Positions 34,544 to 39,054 of a stretch of DNA of 64,000 nt are shown here, in pieces. Location of the stretch: positions 1-64,000 of the forward strand of contig JAUXXH010000051.1 of the NCBI GenBank assembly GCA_030684935.1. Direction: 5' to 3'. The notes beneath the pieces are model-generated. The model did not search any database. It had not been told where the DNA came from and saw nothing but the letters and a program-made list of their open reading frames with translations. Source of the DNA: Pseudolabrys sp. (lineage in GTDB: Bacteria > Pseudomonadota > Alphaproteobacteria > Rhizobiales > Xanthobacteraceae). The translations under genes were made by a program, and so were the position numbers. Position 1 is the stretch's first letter, and every line of letters starts with the position of its first letter.

Positions 34544-36865
34544 ATGCCCCCGATGCGACTTCGAATCCCGCGACCCGCGCTGTGGATTGCGGTGCCAACC
34601 TTTAGTGTCGGTTTGGCGACGGCCGTCGCGTTACATTTCGGATTTCTGATTGCTATCGTCGTCGCGCTGCTGGGCGCGCTCGCCGTCGGCAGCTTTGCCG
34701 AGTACCGGCTGGCGCGGATCATCGCCTCGATCGGCAAGATCGCGCGCGGCGACCGCTACACCATGCTGCCCAGCGTGGTCGGCGACGGCGCCATTCAGCT
34801 GTTCGCCTCGACCGCCGAGACCGTTCGCAGCGCATTGATCGAGGCCGACACACTGTCGGTCGACCAGCAGCGGCGCGAGACCGAGGCCCGGTTGCATCAT
34901 GCCGGGCGGCTGTTCTTCACCGGCAATTTCCGCCAGGCGGTGCAGGAAGTCGTCAACACCTTCACCAGCGCCGGCGAGCGCATTCGCGGCACCGCCGCCG
35001 ACCTCGCCGAGAGCAACCGTCTGATGGCGCGCCAGGTGACGCAGGCGTCTGACGCCGCAACGCGCGCCGCCGAGGATGTCGCCGGCGTCGCCAATGCCGC
35101 TCGCGACGTGCAGATGCTGGTGATGAGTTCGGCGCGCCAGGTGACGGACGCGCGCACCGCCACCGAACGCACAACCGCCGAGTTGCTCCGCGCCGACGCC
35201 ACCATGCACGCGCTGGCGCAGGCGGCGACCCGGATCGAGGAAGTCATCAAGCTGATCCAGGCGATCGCCGGGCAGACCTCGCTGCTGGCGCTGAACGCCA
35301 CCATCGAGGCAGCGCGCGCCGGCGAGGCCGGGCGCGGCTTTGCCGTGGTGGCCGCCGAGGTGAAGGACCTGTCGCGCCGTACCGCGCAGGCGACCGAGGA
35401 CGTCAGCGCCCAGATTCACGGCATCCAGCAGGCAGTGCGCGACACCGCCGCCGCCATTGCGGCGGTCGACCAGAGCGTTTCCGCCATGGGCGGCGTCAAC
35501 GAAAACATCAACCGCATCATCGAGCAGCAGATCTCACAGCTCGATGTCATCGGCACCGAGGCGATGAAGGTCGCCGGCACCGTCAGCGAAGCGCTGCCCG
35601 GCATCAAGGCGGTGGTGGCGGACGTGGCGATCGCCGGCGACGCCGTACTGGCCACTGCCGACGATTTGATCGGCCGCGCCCAGTCGCTGGTCAGTCAGGT
35701 CAGCCGCTACTTTTCGGATCTGGACCACGGCTCGATCAAGGTCGGCATCCTGCATTCGCTGTCCGGCACGCTGACCGCCAGCGAACGGCCGCTGCAGCAG
35801 ATGCTGGTGATGATGATCGAGACGCTGAACCGCAATGGCGGCCTGCTCGGCCGCCCAGTCGAAGCCGTGATCATGGACCCGCGCTCCGACCCCGCCGCCT
35901 ATGGCGAGCAGGCCCGCGCGCTGCTGGCCGACCACGCCGTCGCGGCGATCTTCGGCTGCTGGACATCGGCGTCGCGCCAGCAGGTGCTGCCGGTGCTGGC
36001 CCGCTATGACGGGCTGCTGTTCTACCCCAGCCAATACGAGGGCGAAGAGCAGTCGCCGCACGTTATCTATACGGGCGCCACGCCGCAGCAGCAGGCGATC
36101 CCGGCGGTCGACCATCTGCTCAAGCTCGGCCGCCGCCGCTTCGTGCTGGTCGGCACCGACTACGTCTATCCGCGCACCACCAACGCCATCATCCGCAATT
36201 ATCTCGCCAGCCGCGGCGTCGGCGCCGACTCGGTCGACGAGATGTACACGCCGTTCGGCGAAAAGAGCTGGCACGACCGCGTGCACGCCATCCGCCGCTT
36301 CGCCGGCCGCAACGGCGCCATCATCGCGACGCTGTCCGGCGACGCCAACGTGCACTTCTTCCGCGAGCGCGCGCGGCAGGGGCTCGACGCCGACATCCTG
36401 CCGGTGATGAGCCTGTCGCTGGGCGAGGCCGAAATGCCGGCCTTGGCCGAGCGCAACCTGATCGGCCACATGGTGGCCTGGACCTATCTGCACACGCTCG
36501 ACACACCGGAGAATCAGGCCTTCATCGCGGCGTGGCGGCAGTTCTGCGGCGATCCCACCGCCACCACCAATGACGCCATGGAAGCGAGCTGGATCGGCTT
36601 CCATCTCTGGGCGCAGGCGGTCAGCGCCGCCGGCAGCACCGATGTTACCGCAGTGCGCGCGGCGCTGGCCGGCCGCAGGCTGCGCGCGCCGAGCGGCTTT
36701 GATGTCGTGCTCGACGCCGAGACCCAGCATCTGCACAAGCCCGCCATCATCGGCCGCATGGACGAGAAGAACACAATCTGGCCGGTGTGGATCAGCGACC
36801 ACCCGATCGCGCCGGAGCCGTGGAGCCGGTGGCTGCCGAAGGACGGGCTGAAATTGGCGGGGTGA
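34544..36865 (+). CDS. Chemoreceptor-like signalling domain fused to an amide/urea-type periplasmic-binding domain
   Basis: A 773-residue fusion. Residues about 12-55 form a hydrophobic hairpin of two helices. Residues about 70-395 are a methyl-accepting chemotaxis-type coiled coil; its hairpin tip carries IAGQTSLLALNATIEAARAG and EAGRGFAVVAAEVKDLSRRT (231-276), the CheA/CheW-contact signature. From about residue 396 (SIKVGILHSLSGTLTASERP) to 760 is a type I periplasmic-binding fold like AmiC/UrtA/FmdD (amide or urea binding). No second membrane helix or signal peptide separates the last two parts, so the binding domain should lie on the same, probably cytoplasmic, side as the signalling tip. 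A HAMP domain is not obvious. The gene is solitary; no che or urt genes are near. Confidence 0.88.
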   Translation: MPPMRLRIPRPALWIAVPTFSVGLATAVALHFGFLIAIVVALLGALAVGSFAEYRLARIIASIGKIARGDRYTMLPSVVGDGAIQLFASTAETVRSALIEADTLSVDQQRRETEARLHHAGRLFFTGNFRQAVQEVVNTFTSAGERIRGTAADLAESNRLMARQVTQASDAATRAAEDVAGVANAARDVQMLVMSSARQVTDARTATERTTAELLRADATMHALAQAATRIEEVIKLIQAIAGQTSLLALNATIEAARAGEAGRGFAVVAAEVKDLSRRTAQATEDVSAQIHGIQQAVRDTAAAIAAVDQSVSAMGGVNENINRIIEQQISQLDVIGTEAMKVAGTVSEALPGIKAVVADVAIAGDAVLATADDLIGRAQSLVSQVSRYFSDLDHGSIKVGILHSLSGTLTASERPLQQMLVMMIETLNRNGGLLGRPVEAVIMDPRSDPAAYGEQARALLADHAVAAIFGCWTSASRQQVLPVLARYDGLLFYPSQYEGEEQSPHVIYTGATPQQQAIPAVDHLLKLGRRRFVLVGTDYVYPRTTNAIIRNYLASRGVGADSVDEMYTPFGEKSWHDRVHAIRRFAGRNGAIIATLSGDANVHFFRERARQGLDADILPVMSLSLGEAEMPALAERNLIGHMVAWTYLHTLDTPENQAFIAAWRQFCGDPTATTNDAMEASWIGFHLWAQAVSAAGSTDVTAVRAALAGRRLRAPSGFDVVLDAETQHLHKPAIIGRMDEKNTIWPVWISDHPIAPEPWSRWLPKDGLKLAG

Positions 36866-36895: not shown

Positions 36896-36900
<5 letters not shown>
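36870..36900. repeat. Palindromic repeat, family A (half copy) between convergent genes
   Basis: CTTATCCCTCCCTGCAAGGG continuing GAGGGATTAAG, a hairpin with arms TCCCTCCC-type and loop TGCAA. It matches the ends of the element at 2777-2905 and overlaps the last bases of the DUF255 gene. It probably serves as a bidirectional terminator. Confidence 0.7.
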
Positions 36901-38932
<2,032 letters not shown>

Positions 38933-38938
38933 TTTCGG

Positions 38939-39054
38939 CCTGTCATGCCCGGGCTTGACCCGGGCATCCATGATGCTTCTCGAATGGCGGCAGCCTTATG
39001 TGAGGCCAGCCTCGTGGATGGTCATCATGGATTGCCGGGTCAAGCCCGGCAATG
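38939..39054. repeat. Palindromic repeat, family C (paired cores)
   Basis: Two palindromic cores in opposite orientation, TCATGCCCGGGCTTGACCCG and GGATTGCCGGGTCAAGCCCG, about 85 bp apart with a variable middle, between the DUF255 and sorbosone-dehydrogenase-like genes. Confidence 0.8.

Follow-up and report, generated by a model that had tools for sequence, protein, structure and literature searches.

Architecture of the fusion gene

The window analyzed here, a stretch of 64,000 nucleotides from Pseudolabrys sp. (contig JAUXXH010000051.1), contains an open reading frame with an ATG start that encodes a single protein of 773 residues plus stop codon, in which a short membrane hairpin is followed by an MCP signaling domain and then by a binding domain of the UrtA/AmiC type (Table 1). 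Pfam places MCPsignal at residues 202 to 360 (E 1.5e-26; 93.8 bits against a curated PF00015 cut-off of 34.6) and Peripla_BP_5 at residues 398 to 764 (E 1.7e-131), the latter covering profile positions 1 to 361 of 363. Both domains are present in all 30 aligned homologs (PF00015 at E up to 1), and in each of these proteins, as in that of the window, the ligand-binding-type domain lies C-terminal to the signaling domain on one polypeptide. The order of hairpin, MCP part, and binding domain described in an initial annotation, made from the sequence alone, is therefore correct.

Table 1. Features of the fusion gene and of its convergent neighbor (positions in the window).
Feature	Position	Strand	Evidence
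Complete gene: membrane hairpin, MCP signaling domain, UrtA/AmiC-type binding domain	34544..36865	+	ORF, Pfam, homologs, dN/dS
Membrane hairpin, residues ~12-30 and ~34-52, loop of ~3 residues	34577..34699	+	Kyte-Doolittle scan, charge counts
HAMP-like linker, residues 55-115	34706..34888	+	G69-D70-R71 and P76 invariant in 30 aligned sequences
MCP helical hairpin, residues 116-393, ending about where ordinary MCPs of the same genome end	34889..35722	+	Pfam, comparison with MCPs of the same genome
Signaling tip, residues 243-273 (GQTSLLALNATIEAARAGEAGRGFAVVAAEV)	35270..35362	+	Alignment
Junction YFSDLDHGSI, residues 389-398, without added linker	35708..35737	+	Alignment, side-by-side paralogs
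Type I periplasmic-binding fold (Peripla_BP_5), residues 398-764, no preceding signal peptide	35735..36835	+	Pfam, solved chains, tree
Convergent neighbor Thioredox_DsbH/DUF255, outside the system	36896..38971	-	Scan of neighboring ORFs, genus-mate loci

The linker behind the hairpin was considered as a HAMP domain. It is in register with the corresponding regions of paralogs, but the match is weak (E 0.0083 one-against-one, probability 4.8%) and Pfam reports no HAMP for the window protein nor among the best 25 of 50 families for 30 members, and we dropped this assignment.

Distribution and conservation

We searched for the same domain order, as suggested in the initial annotation. Of 296 genomes from the family, 29 (counting that of the window, and spread over 5 of 47 genera) have a full-length homolog, as do three genomes of other families. 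The other 28 family copies share 52% to 95% identity with the window protein. Class and phylum searches considered at most two candidates per genome under strict E-value limits, so that weaker fusions could be missed; with this proviso, both halves are covered in G335, G459, and G338, each of another family, among 385 sampled class genomes, and in G338 and our own genome among 398 sampled phylum genomes. In 58 further genomes of the class sample, not counting our own, matches are confined to the binding domain or its surroundings, and in 27 genomes of the phylum sample to the binding domain itself. A separate contig collection holds two full-length relatives, one from a Pseudolabrys bin and one from an uncultured Rhizobiales bin, and 60 plasmid records have a match, none of which covers 80% of the query. 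Left out before counting were L013 (probably the same organism as L016), the partial copies in G271 (L037), G031, G152, and G275 among the matches listed for the 296 family genomes, and a contig-end fragment of the gene in G110.

In six close pairs, dN/dS is 0.03 to 0.20 in the hairpin, MCP, and binding parts alike, and the values of 0.05 to 0.10 for the binding domain show that it is under purifying selection. Given the full-length homologs within and beyond the family, the fusion is real and conserved and no chance joining.

A whole receptor joined to a binding protein

Distances across the junction, measured from the first L of the LALNA motif, are much alike in fusions and ordinary receptors. 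Seven of the eight other MCPs found in the same genome end 151 to 152 residues after this point, and the binding domain of the fusions starts at +150 in 30 of 33 sequences, at +153 in two, and at +156 in one. Side by side, the paralogs end in sequences such as 'LRREVEGFLARVAA' where the fusion reads 'LVSQVSRYFSDLDHGSIKVGILHS', and Y389, F390, L393, and I398 are invariant in the 30-sequence alignment, which has no gaps at the junction. Because the binding domain begins where seven of eight MCPs of this genome end, the fusion reads as a whole ordinary receptor joined, with no linker added, to a UrtA-like protein minus its signal peptide. The eighth MCP (L010, 610-2430 on the minus strand of G000:C33) continues beyond its MCP part with a PilZ domain and about 180 residues that have no Pfam match at E 1e-4.

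Location of the binding domain

Three positive charges precede the hairpin of the window protein and four positive and one negative charge lie in the 15 residues behind it; both ends of the hairpin are probably inside the cell. Its loop of only about three residues leaves no space for a periplasmic sensor. We scanned 33 sequences for membrane segments using 19-residue Kyte-Doolittle hydropathy with a cut-off of 1.6, which both hairpin helices pass in most sequences. Only one helix passes in L017 and L042, and neither in G459, where the region looks hydrophobic by eye. The G338 homolog has no segment above the cut-off in the whole protein, and visual inspection of the 240 bases upstream of its ORF, in three frames, shows no hairpin either; it may for these reasons be soluble. 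This protein (L095, 6625-9027) is also the most divergent of the fusion homologs, and its frame is about 10 residues shorter at the end than most.

Beyond residue 110, no third segment exceeds the cut-off in any of the 33 sequences. The highest value in the window protein is 1.59 at residues 354 to 372, within the C-terminal helix of the MCP part, and the maxima of the other 32 sequences range from 1.02 to 1.57; a hidden membrane helix between the two domains, which the initial annotation had considered as an argument against its own reading, was thus not detected at this threshold. All 37 free UrtA-type relatives have a signal-peptide-like start by eye, and at this place the fusions carry MCP sequence, in agreement with the earlier statement that the binding domain lacks an export signal.

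With no third membrane helix in the set and one homolog that seemingly has no hairpin at all, the binding domain very probably resides in the cytosol. Since the second helix of an MCP hairpin runs back to end close to the membrane, the domain should sit at the inner membrane face. Internal sensing, as initially proposed, is the best-supported reading.

Signaling tip and methylation sites

The tip positions that match Tsr N381, E385, R388, F396, V398, and E402, which we take to be the CheA/CheW contact residues in Tsr numbering, are identical in all 33 homologs. Equivalents of Tsr E391 and R394 are each kept in 27 of 33 (R394 is replaced by K in the remaining six), and the N376 equivalent is S in 30 of 33. 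The tip is hence intact as claimed before, and a loss of the presumed contacts across relatives, considered initially as a possible objection, is not what we see.

Methylation sites present a different picture. When the same region was scanned using consensus patterns as we presume them to be, the strict pattern was found in one of 33 fusions compared with five of eight MCPs of the same genome, and the relaxed pattern in seven of 33 compared with eight of eight; the window protein is not among the matching fusions in either case. As the patterns are scarcer in the fusions than in the MCPs of the same genome, it is plausible that methylation is reduced or lost in these receptors.

Kinship and ligand of the binding domain

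By sequence, the nearest solved chain is 8tg1 (2.6e-99), and 7s6e, 7s6f, and 8hic, all named urea-binding proteins, are also near; the AmiC chains 1pea and 1qnl are matched at 1.3e-51, a distant sequence match. Together with the Peripla_BP_5 match, these chains bear out the AmiC/UrtA fold recognized in the initial annotation. On the UrtA profile TIGR03407, the fusion domain scores 421.3 bits and stays below the cut-off of 492.75, which the separate UrtA of the same genome passes with 557.5 bits. The fusion domains share 44% to 50% identity with UrtA, and in a tree that combines 33 fusion domains with 38 other proteins (37 UrtA-type and one distant protein as root) all 33 form one clade with a support of 0.999, apart from the 37 UrtA-type proteins. 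These comparisons point to a domain that is related to UrtA but is not UrtA.

At 66 positions, fusions and UrtA are alike conserved to at least 97%, among them W473, S475, Y494, and D539, and at 25 otherwise conserved positions they differ consistently. S496, S598, L624, and A629 are found in 29 to 31 of 33 fusions where all 37 UrtA-type proteins have V, N, F, and E, respectively. Judged by alignment to AmiC and by part of its contact residues, these residues probably lie near the ligand cleft. An AmiC-like instead of a UrtA-like specificity was considered and dropped: at the 21 of the 25 positions that were compared, AmiC agrees with the fusion at seven, with UrtA at four, and with neither at 10, too little to decide.

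We lean toward urea or a short amide as the ligand. UrtA kinship makes the urea- or amide-like ligand of the initial annotation a fair inference, but the score below the UrtA cut-off and the 25 differing positions weaken it; because of this score and the four replacements named above, the ligand may be something other than urea. Among 10 neighboring ORFs scanned in the window, there are no urt, urea, or amide genes beside the fusion and no AmiR-like protein; one OmpR-type regulator is encoded there.

Genomic context

A chemotaxis cluster elsewhere in this genome (G000, 89.6% complete) comprises a hybrid CheA of 882 residues, CheW, a lone receiver, CheB, and CheR, and adjoins a ChpT-like (HPTransfase) gene. 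The hybrid CheA, the only CheA found in the genome, has Hpt, dimerization, ATPase, and CheW-like domains and a C-terminal receiver. A CtrA-like regulator, a FliI-type ATPase, and FliJ are encoded further along the same stretch; the names ChpT, CtrA, and FliI are our reading of Pfam matches. In this cluster (L085, 8519-19320 of G000:C22, outside the window), the gene order is ChpT-like gene, hybrid CheA, CheW, receiver, CheB, and CheR, and a link of chemosensing to a CtrA relay through this cluster is possible. The fusion receptor probably couples to this CheA. Of the 29 genomes that bear the fusion, 28 have a CheA (missing in G216), which says little since 13 of 15 genus-mates that have no full-length copy possess one too; these 15 include G110, G271, and G275 with their partial copies. 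A tie of the fusion to one CheA type was considered and dropped, as frames of the 882-residue size are common in genus-mates lacking a full-length copy. On another stretch of the genome, UrtA and UrtB, both above their cut-offs, are encoded together with another permease, an ABC protein, and urease subunits.

In the window, the fusion gene is flanked by a methyltransferase gene and the Thioredox_DsbH gene. Across 14 Thioredox_DsbH loci fetched from genus-mates, the fusion adjoins in four and a fragment of it in G110; G208 has its fusion elsewhere, and eight have none in the stretch fetched. The gene also adjoins or is near the fusion in two g38 genomes. We know of no functional link between the two genes. 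A conserved operon partner was considered and dropped: among the neighbors compared in eight other genomes, Thioredox_DsbH, MnmE, and MnmG alone recur from the window, all of them restricted to the two g38 genomes. The neighbors in other genera mostly differ.

Relation to known systems

Canonical transmembrane MCPs such as Tsr and Tar share the signaling hairpin and tip with the fusion, but the latter has no periplasmic sensor, carries its sensor at the C-terminus, and shows no methylation consensus in the window protein. With UrtA (TIGR03407), the fusion domain has in common the full-length fold and the near-invariant positions described above, and it differs by its missing signal peptide, its attachment to an MCP, its score below the family cut-off, and its separate clade. 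AmiC, the Pseudomonas amide sensor (1pea, 1qo0), belongs to the same fold family and is a precedent for a cytosolic member of it. Its partner is the antiterminator AmiR, on which it acts, whereas the fusion domain is joined to an MCP, and AmiC has Y where fusion and UrtA have W473.

That sensing follows signaling was implied to be novel in the initial annotation, and this was overstated. C-terminal ligand domains have been described as a "poorly characterized chemoreceptor subfamily" with at least 17 types in Pfam, of which CZB is the type most commonly placed after the signaling domain (PMC7390727), and Peripla_BP_5 may be among these types. As a chemoreceptor ligand domain, Peripla_BP_5 is listed with one cluster and one sequence in Table 3, on plant-specific clusters, of a study whose pipeline, as described there, counts any Pfam domain except MCPsignal and HAMP as an intracellular ligand domain (PMC8547431). 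Further work covers cytoplasmic receptors of archaea, some of which have C-terminal domains (PMC9680633), cytoplasmic arrays (PMC3964821), and the cytosolic receptor TlpD, whose C-terminal domain is of the CZB type (PMC13001251). CZB receptors such as TlpD resemble the fusion in having the sensor after the MCP domain, but TlpD is a soluble protein whose zinc domain is small, and the fusion has a membrane hairpin and a two-lobed fold of about 370 residues attached without added linker. The open-licence literature searched yielded no experimental work on receptors that carry a UrtA-type domain at the C-terminus. The fusion is probably a new variation, with an internal sensor, within a known but neglected group of receptors with C-terminal sensors.

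Proposed mechanism and alternatives

On balance, we favor a model in which the fusion is a membrane-tethered chemoreceptor that senses a cytoplasmic solute. The N-terminal hairpin would serve as an anchor only, without a periplasmic domain. From there, the signaling hairpin would extend into the cytoplasm to reach CheA and CheW, and its second helix would come back toward the membrane, carrying the two-lobed UrtA-related domain directly at its end. Ligand-induced closure in each half of the dimer could then displace both returning helices at their ends and in this way bias the tip and CheA, a mechanism for and against which we see about equal chances. The receptor would report an internal urea or amide pool whose size depends on uptake by Urt and breakdown by urease.

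Several other readings of the same gene deserve attention. The internal sensor could serve an output other than swimming, passing from the hybrid CheA to the ChpT-like phosphotransferase and the CtrA-like regulator and so acting on gene regulation or the cell cycle. It would fit this reading that the sole CheA found is a hybrid with a receiver, adjoins the HPTransfase gene, and has a CtrA-like regulator nearby, but the FliI-type ATPase, FliJ, CheB, CheR, and the lone receiver lie on the same stretch and a second CheA may be missing because the genome is incomplete, and we regard it as unlikely. Alternatively, the binding domain could have lost small-molecule sensing and become a module for protein-protein contact or localization, as might be suspected from the fusion-specific changes at 25 UrtA-conserved positions and the lack of uptake genes among the scanned neighbors. 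We consider such a loss improbable, because this domain is under purifying selection in all six pairs and W473, S475, and Y494 hardly vary in either the fusions or UrtA.

A periplasmic binding domain, brought about by an inverted or unusual topology, appears very unlikely to us. Its free relatives appear exported by eye and residues 354 to 372 fall just short of the hydropathy cut-off, but that stretch belongs to the C-terminal MCP helix and none of the 33 sequences has a later segment above the cut-off; moreover, the CheA/CheW contacts must be cytoplasmic, no export signal follows them, and the G338 homolog shows no membrane segment whatsoever. That the gene is decaying or chimeric and without function is barely credible and already largely refuted: its presence within the genus is patchy, but length and joint are conserved, the family copies counted are full-length, and dN/dS is well below 1.

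Returning to the membrane-tethered internal sensor, a more far-reaching version of it would be an inside-out, possibly methylation-independent receptor in which a cytosolic, two-lobed urea or amide domain drives the signaling bundle from its C-terminal end close to the membrane, with the cell steering by nitrogen-source uptake minus breakdown. We put this forward tentatively and hold it to be doubtful as a whole. As the sensor is probably inside the cell, the receptor may report solute that has been taken up instead of solute outside. With a well-understood binding fold joined to a signaling bundle without added linker, the fusion is a clean case in which to ask if a chemoreceptor can be driven from its far end, by what means, and also whether bacteria steer by their internal nitrogen pool.
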